A program made the position numbers and the translations under genes. Shown one piece after another: positions 1 to 6,489 of a stretch of 64,000 nt of DNA (the first letter of the stretch is position 1; each line of letters opens with the position of its first letter). This DNA comes from Microcoleus sp. FACHB-1515 (GTDB lineage Bacteria; Cyanobacteriota; Cyanobacteriia; Elainellales; Elainellaceae), in contig NZ_JACJPO010000008.1 of NCBI RefSeq assembly GCF_014696105.1, positions 1 to 64,000 of the forward strand. The letters are read 5' to 3'. The notes under the pieces were generated by a model. The model saw nothing but the letters and a program-made list of their open reading frames with translations, ran no database searches and was not told the DNA's origin.

Positions 1-154
1 CGCAATGGCGATCGACACGGCTGTAGGTGTAGTCGTCTGCTCCGGCTGGCGGAATCGGGCTGATGGCATCGGCTGCGATGATCGCGCTGGCAACGGTGCA
101 AACGGCGATCGATCGCAGAATTGCCGGATTATCCGGCTTCAGAATTTGGTTCAC
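1..154 (-). CDS. Partial small exported or membrane-anchored protein (C-terminus outside window)
   Basis: The reading frame starts at a GTG (154) preceded by AGGAG nine bases upstream, a strong Shine-Dalgarno that decides the start. The visible 51 residues begin MNQILKPDNPAILRS, continue with an Ala/Ile-rich hydrophobic stretch (about residues 15-29) and end TYSRVDRHC at the window edge. The hydrophobic stretch could be a signal peptide or membrane anchor. It is the last visible gene of the minus-strand series running from the XRE regulator. No family is recognised. Confidence 0.5.
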   Translation of the reverse strand, partial: MNQILKPDNPAILRSIAVCTVASAIIAADAISPIPPAGADDYTYSRVDRHC

Positions 155-224: not shown

Positions 225-800
225 TTAGTAATCGCTGAGTTGACGCAGTTGATTGAGCGTGCGGGTTTTGGACTCTAGCTCAATCTCGAATTCATCCAGC
301 GCGGCGTTGATGCCTCGCTGCTCAGCGATTTCGCGACGCGACTGGCTGAGGTTGCCTTCAGCCGATCGATTTTGCTCAATCAGTTTGAGCAGTCGCGCTT
401 TTCGCTCTTCCCCGCGTTGGGTCAGAGTCGAAACTTGGACGCTTGCCAGTGCAAGCGTTCCGCCCACTTCGGGCGGCAAAACTTCGGCTTCAATCACGCC
501 CGCAGACTGCCACTCTTGGGAGTAGCGAGCTTTGGCGGATTCAACCCAGCTTATGGGTGCCATACCGTCGCGCTTGACGTGCTGTGCATAGTCGGCAAAC
601 AGCGATCGCGCCAATTCGGTGTAGCCATGCTCTGTCTTCAGCAGTGGTTCTGGGGCAACTTTGGCAACCCAGGGATACCAACGGGTGCGAATTGTTACCT
701 CTTTGGCGAGGTCTTCGTGCTCAGCGGCGATCGCTTGTGCGGTATATGTGCGGGCTTGTGCGCTCGATGTGCGCTCGATGTGCGCTTGGATGTGCTGCAT
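225..800 (-). CDS. Hypothetical protein of the integrative element, coiled-coil C-terminus
   Basis: 191 residues. The ATG at 800 follows GGAG at a spacing of eight. The first 20 residues (MQHIQAHIERTSSAQA...) are encoded by the TGTGCG repeat array, so this segment may reflect a DNA site more than protein function. Residues about 40-110 include Trp-rich WYPWVAKV and WVESAKARYSQEW. Residues about 125-190 are charged and helical (EERKARLLKLIEQNR, ELESKTRTLNQLRQL), probably a coiled coil. No domain is recognised. It belongs to the minus-strand cluster downstream of the XRE regulator and is most likely element-specific. Confidence 0.65.
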   Translation of the reverse strand: MQHIQAHIERTSSAQARTYTAQAIAAEHEDLAKEVTIRTRWYPWVAKVAPEPLLKTEHGYTELARSLFADYAQHVKRDGMAPISWVESAKARYSQEWQSAGVIEAEVLPPEVGGTLALASVQVSTLTQRGEERKARLLKLIEQNRSAEGNLSQSRREIAEQRGINAALDEFEIELESKTRTLNQLRQLSDY

Positions 801-907
801 TTGTGCGTCTCCGGTTTGTGAATTGGCTCAAACTCAGTCTGTGCAAGTGTGCGGACTTGTGCGTAGTCTGTGCGGACACTGTGCGATCGATGTGCGGTTC
901 GTGTGCG
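736..907. repeat. Helically phased TGTGCG repeat array
   Basis: Twelve exact TGTGCG hexamers start at 736, 747, 757, 768, 779, 802, 848, 858, 869, 880, 891 and 902, plus near-matches at 791 (TGTGCT) and 840 (TGTGCA). Within two clusters (736-807 and 848-907) the spacing is 10-12 bp, one DNA helical turn, so all sites face the same side of the helix. The first cluster lies in the 5' end of the 191-aa gene and the second in the intergenic region. The period is not a multiple of three, so codon repetition does not explain it. It may be an iteron-like or centromere-like protein binding array. Confidence 0.8.
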
Positions 908-908
908 G

Positions 909-1130
909 TTAGCGATCGCCTCGCAAATTCTCAACCATTGCAACAACCTCGTTGCGATGCTCTCGCACCTTCTTAAGAGCAGTTCGAGATAGTGAATAGG
1001 CATCCGCAGTTTCAACGACGGCAGAATGCAGAGCATTCACAGTTTGGTTGAGTTCCGCGACGATCGCATCAATGGCCTCAATCATCTGATTGACGCTGCG
1101 ATCGACTCCTTCTGGTGGATTCGTGGTCAT
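909..1130 (-). CDS. Small hypothetical helical protein of the integrative element
   Basis: 73 residues from ATG 1130; AAGGAG lies twelve bases upstream. The sequence is almost entirely amphipathic helix with regular Ile/Val/Leu/Ala spacing (NQMIEAIDAIVAELNQTV, ALKKVREHRNEVVAMVENL), so a helical-bundle or coiled-coil oligomer is likely. It has no cysteines, signal peptide or membrane segment. It sits between the XRE regulator and the 191-aa gene on the same strand; the gap downstream holds half of the TGTGCG array. No family is recognised. Confidence 0.6.
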   Translation of the reverse strand: MTTNPPEGVDRSVNQMIEAIDAIVAELNQTVNALHSAVVETADAYSLSRTALKKVREHRNEVVAMVENLRGDR

Positions 1131-1200: not shown

Positions 1201-1497
1201 TCAGTTGCGATCAGCGGGGTCGCTGGAATGAAATTTACTCAAGTCGTCCGGCAAGTCTGCGATATCCATACCAATTGACTTAAGTTCGCGCTGAAGGGCT
1301 TTTGCTTGAGGCACGGTCAGAGTTGTAGGAGTAACGCCACGTTCCCACCTGCTGATGGTCACAACCGTTACTCCTAGCCTTCTAGCTAGGTCTTCCTGCG
1401 AAATACCTCCTAACAGATCTCGAAGTGTTGCCAAGGGGGACTTTCCCTCCTCGAATTGAAACTTGCTTGAATCTACCATATCATAATGACTAGTCAC
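1201..1497 (-). CDS. XRE-family helix-turn-helix repressor
   Basis: 98 residues. A typical XRE/Cro-CI helix-turn-helix lies at about residues 30-55 (QEDLARRLGVTV, then TISRWERG). The GTG start at 1497 overlaps a palindromic operator; an ATG at 1479 (MVDSSKF) is an equally plausible start and would leave the operator entirely upstream. Neither has a good Shine-Dalgarno. The gene is divergent from the plus-strand module that includes the primase-helicase, the position of the master repressor in phage satellites and temperate phages. I infer it represses itself and the divergent transcript by binding the twin palindromes at 1487-1512. Confidence 0.85.
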   Translation of the reverse strand: MTSHYDMVDSSKFQFEEGKSPLATLRDLLGGISQEDLARRLGVTVVTISRWERGVTPTTLTVPQAKALQRELKSIGMDIADLPDDLSKFHSSDPADRN

Positions 1498-1774: not shown

Positions 1775-2221
1775 ATGAGCACCTTCATTCGATTCGAGAA
1801 TAGGCTGATCAACCTCGCAGAAGTGTCCCACGTCCGGCTGGACGAATCACCTCGGCAAATTTGGGTCTGCTTTCCCTGTGGCGATGTCATTCAAGTTGAA
1901 GGCGATCGCGCTGAGCAACTGTGGAACGTGCTGCAACAGCACGCCACTGGAGCGATTGACGAAATCAGCATCATGGCCTCGCTCGATCGCGCACAAATGC
2001 TCGACACGATTGGAACTCAAATGAACGCGCTGCAATTGGCGGCAGAGGTGATCGTTGCTGCCGGAGCCAAGGTTGGCGACTGCGGCAGTCTCGACATCAG
2101 CACGCTGGTGGCCTACCTGCTCAGGGAAGGCAAACAGCGATACGAGAACGATGACCTTGAAACGGTCGAAGCAAATATCGATCGCCTCACGGATGCTTGG
2201 GAGGCTGCGACTCGTGATTAA
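1775..2221 (+). CDS. Hypothetical protein of the integrative element
   Basis: 148 residues from ATG 1775, with AAGGA nine bases upstream. The N-terminal ~55 residues (FENRLINLAEVSHVRLDE, then IWVCFPCGDVIQVEGDRAEQLW) read like a small beta-rich PH-like fold similar to short proteins that begin with an expression-of-a-residue-and-its-neighbours pattern in phages; this is only an impression. Residues 70-148 are helical and acidic. Its 3' end overlaps the start of the zinc-ribbon gene, so the two are translationally coupled. It is the first gene after the terminator at 1695-1731. Function unknown. Confidence 0.65.
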   Translation: MSTFIRFENRLINLAEVSHVRLDESPRQIWVCFPCGDVIQVEGDRAEQLWNVLQQHATGAIDEISIMASLDRAQMLDTIGTQMNALQLAAEVIVAAGAKVGDCGSLDISTLVAYLLREGKQRYENDDLETVEANIDRLTDAWEAATRD

Positions 2222-2404: not shown

Positions 2405-2457
2405 CGTGTCAGTTGCCTCCACTGAGGCAGCCCAATTATAGATTTGGAGCGTTCCTG

Positions 2458-4848
2458 ATGAACTTCGACATCAAAAACTACATCGAATTTAATTCTAAGG
2501 GTAGGGGTGCTTGTCCCTGCTGTGCAGTCGATGGGAAAGCGAAAAACACGAATCTCTCTGTTCAAGAGAATGGGGCCTACAAGTGTTTTCGCGGTTGTTC
2601 CCCTGCTGATATTCGTGCTGCGTTGGGCACTCCCAAGCCTCAGCAAATTCCCGCTGCGCTGGCCGCGCCTTCCCCGGCTGCGAAATCTCTGACCATTTCA
2701 CCGCAGAAAATGCTGGCCTCCCATCAGGAATTGATGAAGTCGAACGGGCCAGCGAAGCAGTGGCTCCACCAGCGCGGCATTACGGACGAGATTATTGCCC
2801 GCTATCAGTTGGGCTTTGCCCGATCGAAAGTGGGCGATCGCCATCTGCCCAGCATCGCGATTCCCCTACCTGCGAATGACGACGGTACTGCCTATCACCA
2901 GAAGAAACGAGTCGCGCCCTGGCTCAGCGAGTCCGACCGTCCGCGCGACTATCGCGCTTGGTCACAAGCTGGCATTCCCGCGCGGGTCTGGTTCACTTGG
3001 CGTCCGGTTGAAGCAGAGCAGACCTTCCTCTGCGAAGGGGAATGGGATGCAATGCTGCTGGGTTGGCAGATGCGACACGCCGATCTACCGATCGCCGTCG
3101 CTTGCTTCACCTGCGGATGTGGCACAGTTCCGCCACTGGAGCAACTCGACAAGCTACCGGGAACGGTCAGCATCTTTTACGATCGCAACGACAAGCCCGA
3201 CAAGCACGGCAAGATTCCCGGTGAAGAGGGTGCCAAAAAAGTCGCAGAGGCATTGGGCGATCGCGCTCGCATCGCTGCCGTCCCCATGCCCGACAACTGC
3301 CAGAGTCACGGTTGGGACATCTCAGACGCGCTCAATGGCGGCTTCACCCTGCAAGACATCATTCACGCAGCCAACAGCGCTACAATCGCCGTCAAACCGC
3401 TTCAGAAGCCCAACAAGCTGCGCGATCGACTGAAGTGGAATGATGAATTACTAGATTCGGCTCCCGACTACACCGAATGGCTCGTCCCCGACTTATTGAC
3501 GGCGGACGAGCTTTTCTTGTTGGCAGCAGGCCCCAGAGCAGGTAAATCGCTGATGGCGATGACGCTGGCCCGCGCCGTTGCTGCTGGCGATACGTTTCTC
3601 GATCGACCTGTGACGCAGGGCACAGTCATGTATGTCCGCTGCGAAGACGGGGAAGCGAAGACGAAAGAGCGGGAACTAGCTCAAGGTTGGACTCGTGGCC
3701 TCCCCGTCGCGTGGTTCGACAAGTTCAAACTCTCCGAGATTGACCAGCTTCGAGAACTCGCCAAAGAACTCGATCCACGCCTAATCGTTCTCGACACCCT
3801 GAGCAGAATTCGCGACGGCAGTATTTCTGAATCGTCTGCTGAAATGAGTCAAGCGCTGGAGCCACTGCAAGAACTCGCGCAGGAAATCGGCTGCTGCGTC
3901 CTGCTGGTGCACCATACCAACAAAGTCTCAGCAGAAAATGCTGGGACGATCGACGTGTTCGACACGATTCGCGGCTCTAGTTCGATTCGCGCCGTGTGTC
4001 GTGGCTCGCTGATCATTGCCGCTGGCGAACGCAACTTCCGCCTCTGTGTGGAAAACGGTTGGGGGAAACATGACCTCAGCATTCTGCTCGATGCCAACAC
4101 GCTCACGTGGCGACTGCTCGGCCAGTGGCAGCCAGTGATCGTAGGTGATCAGAAAGAGCGAGTTGTTGAATATCTCAAGCAAGTTCAACGGTCATCACTC
4201 GATGACATTCACATTGCGACACAAATCCCTAAAAAGTCGCTCTATGAAGTTTTGGCGAGGCTGCAAACCGTTGATGCTGCTGACGATCGCGTCATCAAAG
4301 AAGGGACGCGGCGTAATTATACCTACCGTCTTGCGCTATTCAACACTATTCAACTGTTGAATACGCTGTTGAATAGCGCAAATCCAGACTCAGACAGCGA
4401 TACAGGCCACTATTCAACAAAAAATGATTTTTCCCTTAATACCCCAAAGGTGATCAGTGATCACATTGGCACATGTGACAGTTTGATCACCTTTGATCCC
4501 TTGCCAGAAAGAGAAATTGTTGAATATAGCCACGAACAAGCCTCAAACGCAGACACAGCAAGCATTTCGGCTTTTCAACAACAATTCAACTCTATTCAAC
4601 AAGAATCTCAGAACGCAGACACAGCAAGCCTTCCGCCTATTCAACAAAAGAACCAGGGTGATCACTCCGCTATTCAACAGGGTGATTGCGTTGAAATTCG
4701 ATCTGGCCAGTTCTGGGGAAAACTCGTCACGGTCGAATCGGTTGAAGGTGATTTGGTGAGGGTGAAAGGCGAGGGATGGCATATCACTCGCACGTATGCG
4801 ATCGCGCAGGTGAAGTTCGTGAGCAGGGGAGGCGATCGCGATGGTTAA
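2458..4848 (+). CDS. Primase-helicase replication protein (zinc finger, Toprim, RecA-like ATPase)
   Basis: 796 residues from ATG 2458, chosen because GGAG lies eight bases upstream; a TTG 45 bases earlier has no such site. N-terminal zinc-binding segment CPCC at residues 19-22 with CFRGC near 43-47 is typical of DnaG-like primases. A Toprim-type motif CEGEWDAMLL is near residue 191 and FYDRNDK near 240. A RecA-like ATPase follows: Walker A AAGPRAGKS (about 355), Walker B LIVLDTLSR (about 441) and CVLLVHHTNK (about 480), as in RepA/DnaB-like hexameric helicases. This is the replication protein of phage satellites and small plasmids. The C-terminal third is low-complexity (NADTAS repeats, Gln-rich) because the DNA there carries the TATTCAAC array. 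An 8-base overlap couples it to the next gene. Confidence 0.85.
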   Translation: MNFDIKNYIEFNSKGRGACPCCAVDGKAKNTNLSVQENGAYKCFRGCSPADIRAALGTPKPQQIPAALAAPSPAAKSLTISPQKMLASHQELMKSNGPAKQWLHQRGITDEIIARYQLGFARSKVGDRHLPSIAIPLPANDDGTAYHQKKRVAPWLSESDRPRDYRAWSQAGIPARVWFTWRPVEAEQTFLCEGEWDAMLLGWQMRHADLPIAVACFTCGCGTVPPLEQLDKLPGTVSIFYDRNDKPDKHGKIPGEEGAKKVAEALGDRARIAAVPMPDNCQSHGWDISDALNGGFTLQDIIHAANSATIAVKPLQKPNKLRDRLKWNDELLDSAPDYTEWLVPDLLTADELFLLAAGPRAGKSLMAMTLARAVAAGDTFLDRPVTQGTVMYVRCEDGEAKTKERELAQGWTRGLPVAWFDKFKLSEIDQLRELAKELDPRLIVLDTLSRIRDGSISESSAEMSQALEPLQELAQEIGCCVLLVHHTNKVSAENAGTIDVFDTIRGSSSIRAVCRGSLIIAAGERNFRLCVENGWGKHDLSILLDANTLTWRLLGQWQPVIVGDQKERVVEYLKQVQRSSLDDIHIATQIPKKSLYEVLARLQTVDAADDRVIKEGTRRNYTYRLALFNTIQLLNTLLNSANPDSDSDTGHYSTKNDFSLNTPKVISDHIGTCDSLITFDPLPEREIVEYSHEQASNADTASISAFQQQFNSIQQESQNADTASLPPIQQKNQGDHSAIQQGDCVEIRSGQFWGKLVTVESVEGDLVRVKGEGWHITRTYAIAQVKFVSRGGDRDG
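4165..4678. repeat. TATTCAAC octamer array with a 45-bp dyad (candidate replication origin)
   Basis: TATTCAAC or its complement occurs ten times: plus orientation at 4337, 4347, 4411, 4593, 4638 and 4671; minus at 4165, 4356, 4368 and 4519. Four copies form a head-to-head dyad at 4334-4378, with outer arms CGCTATTCAACA / TGTTGAATAGCG and inner arms TATTCAAC / GTTGAATA. Plus copies fall in all three codon frames, so the constraint is on DNA, not protein. Iterons inside or next to the replication gene are typical of plasmid and satellite origins. Confidence 0.7.
4445..4495. repeat. 12-bp perfect inverted repeat inside the candidate origin
   Basis: CAAAGGTGATCA (4445-4456) and TGATCACCTTTG (4484-4495) flank a 27-base centre. 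GGTGATCA recurs at 4657-4664. The repeat lies among the TATTCAAC iterons and could be a second protein binding site or strand-opening structure. Confidence 0.65.
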
Positions 4849-5059
4849 GAAAATCAGCAGCGCTTGGGTTGCCAGCGGTGAAGTCTGCAAATCCCTCGGC
4901 TTCAAACCAAAGCATCTCTGGAAGCTGCGTGACGACGGTTCGCTGAGGGAAGGGACGCACTGGAGAAATATCGCCAGTCCTCACGCAGCAAGGCCTACTT
5001 ACCGCTGGCATCTCGATCGCATCCGCAAACTACTCGAAACCCGGAAGGAGGAACGGTAA
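4841..5059 (+). CDS. Xis-like small DNA-binding protein
   Basis: 72 basic residues from ATG 4841, overlapping the end of the primase-helicase gene by eight bases, with GGAGGCGATCGCG upstream as Shine-Dalgarno. The body (SAWVASGEVCKSLGFKP, LWKLRDDG, then TYRWHLDRIRKLL) resembles winged-helix MerR/excisionase-type proteins in which a short helix-turn-helix is followed by a beta hairpin and a C-terminal helix ending in Arg/Lys. It lies tail-to-tail with the integrase gene, three bases apart. The most likely role is recombination directionality factor; a replication accessory protein is the alternative. Confidence 0.55.
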   Translation: MVKKISSAWVASGEVCKSLGFKPKHLWKLRDDGSLREGTHWRNIASPHAARPTYRWHLDRIRKLLETRKEER

Positions 5060-5061
5060 CT

Positions 5062-6156
5062 TCAACGGGGTGGAAGCGGGCGATCGCCTCGGTTCATCAT
5101 CACCTCATAGGCCCGCTGGTGAACCTCTTCACTAATCCATCGGTGATAGGTTTGCGTGTGAACGCCGATCGAGTGGCCCATCTGCTGAGCGGCCAGCTCG
5201 ATCGGCATTCCAAACTCCAGCGATCGGATGGCCCAACCATGCCGCAGATTGTAGGGAGGAAACGGAACGCCATAGCGCTTAAAAGCGTGAGTAATTCGAT
5301 TGCCTAAATCAGAATTATTTTTGCCTGAGCAATTTGGAATGAGTACCTTTTCGAGTTCCCAAACCTCTGCCCACTCTGGGTAGAGCGGATAGACACGATG
5401 AAAATTTGTTTTGGTGCCATCTAACACCATCAGCACGGGGAACTTAGAGAAATCAAGGTGAAAAACCTCATGATTCCTCAGTCCGTAGGTTGCCATCATG
5501 CCGAATACCCAGCGCCATGCCGCATTGGGAATGCGATCGAACCACTGTGCAATCAAGCGATCGGAAGGAATATCTCTTACCTCAGTCGAAGCGGCTGAAT
5601 AACTTCCACGCAGCGGCTTGAAATTCGCGTCTAGGCTCGCAAAGTCAGCCAATCGTGAGCAAACATCTACAAATCGCCTCCGCGTCCGGCTGTCGGCTTC
5701 TGTCGAGTCAATTGCTGACCTCAGCAGTTCAACCGTCAGCGGTTGCTCACTCGGCAGCGTTTTGAAGACTTTCAGATAGTCATCCTTCCAAGTCGTCTCA
5801 CTCTGCGGCGATCGCCGTCTTCGAGTGAAGTAGTCCGCCTCAAAACGTGTGATCCAATAAGCAACAGTCTGTATGTTATTTTCAACCTCACTTTTGACAT
5901 ACACGCTCCAATCGAACTCGCCACAGTCCAGCAGCGCTCCAACTTTCCGTGCTTCCTGCTCGGCCAGCTTCAAGCCAGCAGGATTTGCGTGATAGCCCAG
6001 CGAGATGCGCTGCTGAAAAGCACGAGTGCGATCGCTTCCCGGTCTCGGTGGCAGTGTCGCCCGCAGATAAAGATGATTCCCTTTTTGGGTAATCGTCACG
6101 CCAACATTTGCTGACCGTAGCCGTCCGTTTGCTTGCGCTAATTTTCCCTCAATCAT
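5062..6156 (-). CDS. int: Tyrosine recombinase / phage-type integrase
   Basis: 364 residues from ATG 6156. The open frame extends upstream through repeats, but the sequence MIEGKLAQANGRLRS gives a sensible N-terminal domain. The catalytic domain shows Arg in TYGLRNHEVFH, YNLRH where box II normally reads HxxR, the second histidine in QQMGHS and the nucleophile in TQTYHRW. Box II therefore has Tyr in place of the first His, a variant known from cyanobacterial excision recombinases of the XisA/XisC group. The N-terminal part looks like an arm-binding and SAM-like core-binding pair. It faces the tRNA across a terminator and short direct repeats, which may be its arm-type sites. Confidence 0.92.
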   Translation of the reverse strand: MIEGKLAQANGRLRSANVGVTITQKGNHLYLRATLPPRPGSDRTRAFQQRISLGYHANPAGLKLAEQEARKVGALLDCGEFDWSVYVKSEVENNIQTVAYWITRFEADYFTRRRRSPQSETTWKDDYLKVFKTLPSEQPLTVELLRSAIDSTEADSRTRRRFVDVCSRLADFASLDANFKPLRGSYSAASTEVRDIPSDRLIAQWFDRIPNAAWRWVFGMMATYGLRNHEVFHLDFSKFPVLMVLDGTKTNFHRVYPLYPEWAEVWELEKVLIPNCSGKNNSDLGNRITHAFKRYGVPFPPYNLRHGWAIRSLEFGMPIELAAQQMGHSIGVHTQTYHRWISEEVHQRAYEVMMNRGDRPLPPR

Positions 6157-6160
6157 GCCA

Positions 6161-6230
6161 GTGCCTAAATCGTGCCTAAAAAAGAGTGGAGTATTAGGGA
6201 TGGTTAGGGATGGTTGAGGATGGTTAGGAA
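6161..6230. repeat. Direct repeats between integrase and tRNA (candidate arm-type sites)
   Basis: GTGCCTAAA occurs at 6161-6169 and 6172-6180, 11 bp apart. A 10-bp tandem repeat follows at about 6194-6229 (units TAGGGATGGT, TAGGGATGGT, TGAGGATGGT, then TAGG). They lie between the integrase start and its attachment site, where arm-binding sites are expected. Confidence 0.55.
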
Positions 6231-6236
6231 AAAACA

Positions 6237-6278
6237 AAACTCTCGCAACCCTTGCTGTAATTGGGTTACGAGAGTTTT
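6237..6278 (-). terminator. Intrinsic terminator of the tRNA gene
   Basis: Stem AAAACTCTCG-AACCC / GGGTT-CGAGAGTTTT, with one mismatch and an eleven-base loop. On the minus strand it is followed by TTTTGTTTTTT, so it ends the tRNA transcript before the integrase gene. The stem can also stop plus-strand transcription. Confidence 0.75.
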
Positions 6279-6294
6279 ATAAACGCTGAAAAGA

Positions 6295-6367
6295 TGGCTC
6301 AGGCGAGATTTGAACTTGCGACCTTGGGCTTATGAGTCCCCTGCTCTAACCACTGAGCTACTGAGCC
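6295..6367 (-). tRNA. tRNA with CAU anticodon (elongator Met, or Ile2), integration site
   Basis: 73 nt without encoded CCA. The acceptor stem GGCTCAG/CTGAGCC pairs perfectly, the D-stem GCTC/GAGC is intact, and the anticodon loop is CTCATAA. The T-loop TTCAAAT is normal. Two positions of the anticodon stem (G27-A43 and A31-G39) and one of the T-stem (A51-C63) do not pair. All three involve the 3' half, the part replaced when an element integrates at a tRNA, so the gene may carry element-derived sequence. Met versus lysidine-modified Ile cannot be settled by eye. Confidence 0.88.
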
Positions 6368-6489
6368 ATATCCACTGGCAACGTGGTTTCAGTTAACTAA
6401 TCTAGCACATTACCAGAAGCAATCGCGAACTTCGTTTAAATTTTGTCAGCCGCAAGGTTGCTCGATCGAAGCTTGCGGCTGACGAAAGA

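Follow-up and report, generated by a model that had tools for sequence, protein, structure and literature searches.

Background

The stbDRs of plasmid R388 consist of two sets of five 9-bp direct repeats with 2-nt spacers, giving an 11-bp period, and are located around the promoter of the operon of StbA itself (PMC3098194). In plasmid R1, parC contains ten direct repeats of 11 bp that flank the promoter and is centromere-like (PMC9426499). BldC, RdfS and Xis are winged helix-turn-helix (HTH) proteins that bind direct repeats cooperatively and, where the site is long, place roughly one unit on each helix turn (PMC5859096, PMC11963761).

The window studied here, a stretch of 64,000 nucleotides, begins at base 1 of a contig (C78) of a 5.8-Mb cyanobacterial genome and contains a helically phased array of TGTGCG hexamers at positions 736–907. 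By analogy, this array may work like StbA/stbDR of R388 or ParR/parC of R1, both systems of plasmid stability, the likeness drawn here being one of layout. Like the stbDRs, it forms two clusters of direct repeats with an 11-bp period at the gene start of its proposed binder, a 191-aa protein; however, the repeated word is different, half of the array is inside the gene, no StbB-like ATPase lies beside it in the window, the host element is integrated in the chromosome, and the 191-aa protein is without sequence match to solved structures or curated families. With ParMRC of R1 it shares an 11-bp direct-repeat series in a centromere-like layout, whereas ParR is a ribbon-helix-helix (RHH) protein working with the actin-like ParM and the prediction for the 191-aa protein is an HTH with a coiled coil; no match to ParR (RHH) or to an actin-like ParM was found among the genes neighbouring the array. 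BldC, RdfS and Xis, as winged HTH proteins on direct repeats, provide the precedent for a filament, but they are small, single-domain proteins with a loose sequence preference, and the short BldC site has 9-bp repeats, whereas the array is built on a strict hexamer. A short, single-domain, MerR-like winged HTH of the BldC type was rejected for the 191-aa protein, which has an 80-residue helix predicted to form a coiled coil.

The integrated element

The array sits within an integrated element beside a tRNA-Met gene, the left part of which has been lost at the contig end (Table 1). The genome holds another such element (L009, contig C73), located in tRNA-Phe, which has an array at the same place and a 130-aa protein as the counterpart of the 73-aa protein. 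It was also observed that the two contigs start with nearly identical 112 bp (window 1–112 and L009 1–112); this shared start is an assembly break within two related elements, the left parts being on other contigs.

Table 1. Features of the element in the window, and terminal repeat of a complete related element
Feature	Position	Strand	Remarks
191-aa protein, proposed array binder; prediction: winged HTH at N-terminus, coiled coil at C-terminus (residues 110–190)	225..800	-	
Cluster 1 of array	736..807	+	TGTGCG at 736, 747, 757, 768, 779, 802; near-match at 790
Core between clusters (~40 bp), leader of 191-aa gene	808..847		Nearly all positions as in L009
Cluster 2 of array	848..907	+	TGTGCG at 848, 858, 869, 880, 891, 902; near-match at about 841
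73-aa small protein	909..1130	-	No family match above cut-off; varies between elements
XRE/HTH_3 regulator	1201..1497	-	HTH_3, E 2.9e-11
148-aa accessory protein	1775..2221	+	Similar 144-aa protein at same place in L009
Primase-helicase	2413..4848	+	AAA_25, E 2.9e-33; weak DnaB_C and DnaG_N
TATTCAACA, nine copies inside helicase gene	4164..4679	both	Expected 0.25
72-aa HTH_17-like protein, probably excisionase	4841..5059	+	Weak match, E 0.033, below cut-off
Tyrosine integrase	5062..6237	-	Phage_integrase, E 5.5e-6
tRNA-Met, attachment gene, right end of element	6293..6368	-	
52-bp direct repeat, G027 element	L018 13775–13826 and L022 16718–16769		tRNA-Phe end

The phased TGTGCG array

The original prediction had counted clusters of seven and six hexamers, two of them near-matches, spaced by 11 bp on one side of the helix. 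This count was very nearly right: 12 exact copies are present, all in a single orientation, and the near-matches TGTGCT and TGTGCA bring the clusters to 7 + 6 or 7 + 7 sites. Spacing and helical face were as predicted, with intervals of 10–12 bp, mostly 11, a circular phase coherence for all 12 hexamers of 0.92–0.93 at 11.07–11.2 bp, and both clusters in phase with each other across the intervening gap. From the rate in the rest of the window, 0.035 plus-strand TGTGCG would be expected per 172 bp, against the 12 observed. The chain score for words phased at 10–12 bp was 69.5 for the array, the highest value among 141 Markov shuffles of this locus and related loci being 15.6. Since the linkers between hexamers are unlike from copy to copy, the array is not a simple tandem duplication. 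HIP1 or a dispersed heptamer repeat was rejected, in line with what had been proposed, because both the word and the 11-bp phasing differ from those of the GCGATCGC octamer or a heptamer, and triple TGTGCG runs in the genome are confined to the two elements.

Cluster 1 covers the opening ~65 bp (codons 1–22) of the 191-aa gene together with the bases immediately preceding it, and cluster 2 is intergenic, between this gene and that of the 73-aa protein. The view that the array is not a codon repeat held, since 11 is not a multiple of three and half of the array is non-coding. For the same arithmetical reason cluster 1 is read in shifting frames, and it encodes the first residues of the 191-aa protein, which are of very low confidence in the AlphaFold2 model; together, these features suggest that the DNA rather than the peptide is under selection there. 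Nearly all positions of the core are identical in both elements of the genome, and TTTGAGCCA(A)TTC (minus strand) is kept in a third element (L018) as well. A search of the core for a sigma-70-like promoter found none.

Conservation of the array in related elements

Alignment of the array of the window with that of L009, in which cluster 2 was aligned from the right end, somewhat favouring the hexamers, gave 66 identical and 6 different hexamer positions compared with 26 and 24 in the linkers (Fisher P = 7e-7). In L018, from another genus and with a protein 51% identical, the same TGTGCG word is found in the same two-cluster layout at the same place, and in L020 (pieces 41–54% identical) the layout is retained with another word, CGAAC(A/G) at 11 bp, upstream of and into the gene. 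Neither loss of the array nor loss of its phasing was seen in these three relatives. Their conservation supports, at the level of sequence, the earlier proposal that the array is bound cooperatively by one protein of the element with a partition, replication or regulatory function. Within the window's family, though in few elements only, the HTH sequence TIRTRW accompanies CGCACA and TIRIRW accompanies CGAACA.

A whole element of the window's type was found in genome G027, where some 17.1 kb are delimited by two perfect 52-bp copies of the tRNA-Phe end in direct orientation. Its 191-aa-type gene is followed by same-strand genes without family matches, including one for a protein of ~525 aa that was detected in 56 of the 388 genomes of the class and serves as the marker of a family of integrated elements widespread in cyanobacteria. 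The ~525-aa protein and its ~700-aa partner (L018 26–3720; L066–L105) are both without a family match, and the pair is possibly a virion or transfer module. Extrachromosomal forms are plausible, since a 20.7-kb circular Tolypothrix plasmid (L155, NZ_CP064893.1) carries the 525-aa marker and an integrase; this plasmid is probably an extrachromosomal form of such an element. The array was looked for in this circular record and was absent; it is not present in every element of the wider family.

Other repeats were of a different nature: those scoring high in L081 and L104 are either coding repeats or long tandem ones, and 12-bp tandem repeats account for the TGTGCG runs of genomes G014 and G019. 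A longer tandem repeat at L104 3078–3406, between the integrase and neighbouring genes, holds about 13 copies of CCATGAA, and an exact 11-bp tandem repeat, TGTGCGTTCTT, was noticed in another genus (G028:C121:11837–11886).

The 191-aa protein

AlphaFold2, run on an alignment of four sequences (mean pLDDT 68), predicted helices at residues 21–27 and 34–45, a short hairpin, two further helices and a single helix at 110–190, with low confidence for the first 35 residues. The model predicts an N-terminal HTH with a wing followed by a long coiled coil of 80 residues. Foldseek gave MerR family regulators as the best matches to this model, none being significant, and no match above cut-off was obtained in Pfam, NCBIfam or PDB. 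Scans of viral and genome contigs with the 191-aa protein also gave no match.

Phased arrays with other words, TGGAAC in L099 and CGGTTC in L103, were found beside 180–210-aa proteins with, by inspection, an N-terminal HTH and a C-terminal coiled coil; in both loci, two clusters of 4–5 repeats lie around a short core and adjoin the gene. An AlphaFold2 model of the L103 protein made without an alignment was discarded (pLDDT 44). Profile comparison of the 191-aa protein with the L099-type proteins did not establish homology (HMM E values of 1.7–4.8); the link between them consists of architecture, position and a shared P-E-x-G-G-like motif, and the two families are treated as analogous. Neither protein type had a relative in plasmid and phage collections.

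Phased repeats in the wider family

L099-type proteins are encoded in 26 of 63 genomes of one family and in 46 of 388 of the class. At 15 of their gene starts, picked solely by protein homology, lag-11 identity in the 130 bp upstream was 0.350, against 0.262 for a background of 545 other gene starts (z = 7.4; 0 of 20,000 draws), and the same starts gave z = 6.1 at lag 22. An independent set of 10 such starts reproduced the lag-11 signal (z = 7.1; 0 of 20,000 draws).

These results bear on whether the array could be a coding or mutational artefact, that is, a tandem or protein repeat that plays no part in binding. In favour of such an origin, cyanobacteria commonly contain tandem repeats; however, the layout recurs with other words and at gene starts chosen by homology, the period is no codon multiple, and the hexamers were kept while the linkers diverged. 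This explanation is already contradicted by the conservation data and is extremely improbable.

The repeated word in the L099-type family appears, from sequence comparison, to follow the recognition residue of the HTH: 1) H or Y is found in non-redundant genes with GAAC/GTTC words (17 of 18 with at least four), and 2) R is found with GTACC-type words in all four genes concerned (residue-word test P = 7e-4, with shared ancestry ignored).

Three candidate binders had been named, namely the XRE protein, the 73-aa protein and the 191-aa protein. The comparison favours the last, which is singled out as the sole constant neighbour of the array, the others varying by element (73 aa, 130 aa, DUF2283-like, or none). 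An alternative is that the array is an operator for the XRE protein, the 73-aa protein or the excisionase-like 72-aa winged HTH protein, by which the operon would be controlled with no involvement of the 191-aa protein. The XRE and 73-aa genes do adjoin the array, and phased filaments are known for small winged HTH proteins, among them BldC, Xis and RdfS, but this alternative seems rather unlikely given the variable neighbours and the way in which, across the wider family, the word changes with the recognition helix of the HTH/coiled-coil protein. XRE proteins, moreover, mostly prefer short palindromes, which they bind as dimers.

Repeats in the helicase gene and the position of a possible origin

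Another possibility is that the array is a replication origin of the kind known from staphylococcal islands or iteron plasmids, with iterons for the primase-helicase or another initiator and unwinding at the core. As in the iteron origins of plasmids and chromosomal islands, short direct repeats are grouped here on both sides of a core, and the element encodes a replication protein of its own, in this case a primase-helicase; iterons are commonly phased with the helix. Unlike such origins, the element has a different repeat set in its helicase gene, formed by the nine TATTCAACA copies, which are candidate replication origin iterons. Relatives have other words at the same place of the helicase gene: GGGACAACCT in L020, GGTGATCC in L080, CCGTCAC in L083, GTCAGC in L064 and TCTCCAA in L087. 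Because the helicase genes of the element and its relatives hold repeats of their own, an origin at 736–907 is less likely, and the replication part of the original prediction is weakened. In addition, the array tracks the HTH/coiled-coil gene even in elements with a different type of replication gene, and the core, as judged by eye, is not AT-rich. We therefore regard an origin within the array as improbable.

Proposed function of the array

The array is probably the cooperative cognate site of the element's own 191-aa HTH/coiled-coil protein, as judged from the sequence comparisons. One protein unit would bind per helix turn, cooperatively, on the start of the unit's own gene, and the bound units would form two clusters, one to each side of the ~40-bp core, all aligned along the same face of the DNA. 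The promoter or leader would in this way be folded into a nucleoprotein complex, by which the operon starting there would be repressed or tuned. Autoregulation by the 191-aa protein is probable, because binding would cover the leader and the start of its own gene. The complex may also tag the DNA of the element for handling, either for segregation of the excised circle or for transfer or packaging; such a centromere-like or packaging role is conceivable, at somewhat less than even chances.

A more specific form of this explanation is that the array is a packaging or transfer start site, at which the HTH/coiled-coil protein, like a small terminase or relaxosome protein, would load a P-loop ATPase. 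It has to be taken as a serious alternative because a P-loop ATPase with weak HerA/FtsK likeness is encoded downstream, 2–4 genes from the HTH/coiled-coil gene, in many L099-type relatives. The gene heads a run including such an ATPase of ~430–660 aa in about ten relatives (L140, L141, L143, L144, L145, L146, L148, L152, L153, L099 and L066); one of these ATPases gave weak HerA/FtsK/VirB4-like matches (E 3e-4 to 1e-3), and an ATPase profile matched FtsK chains among others (E 8e-5). StbA itself is known to influence transfer (PMC3098194). On the other hand, the protein is only weakly assigned as an ATPase, membrane anchoring was assessed by visual inspection alone, and no ATPase of this kind was seen in the G027 element, which is of the window's type. 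Overall, a dedicated packaging or transfer start site is unlikely, though less so than an origin or an operator for another regulator.

Returning to the array as the site of the 191-aa protein, a broader proposal can be made tentatively, namely that each element carries an HTH/coiled-coil protein and a matching phased array, the word switching with the recognition helix, and thereby has a DNA identity of its own, to be used for segregation, for transfer or for packaging by an ATPase that the element encodes. No earlier description of these elements was found in the literature searched outside subscription journals, and a recognition system of this sort in widespread, possibly viral cyanobacterial elements was not described there.

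Significance

Because many natural pairs of protein and phased array with different words are available, it becomes possible to test directly how recognition helix and repeat correspond and what rules cooperative assembly follows. The question of incompatibility is open to test as well, since a single genome harbours two elements that share a word. Beyond this, the finding draws attention to a common family of cyanobacterial elements integrated in tRNA genes, the products of which are mostly without annotated relatives.
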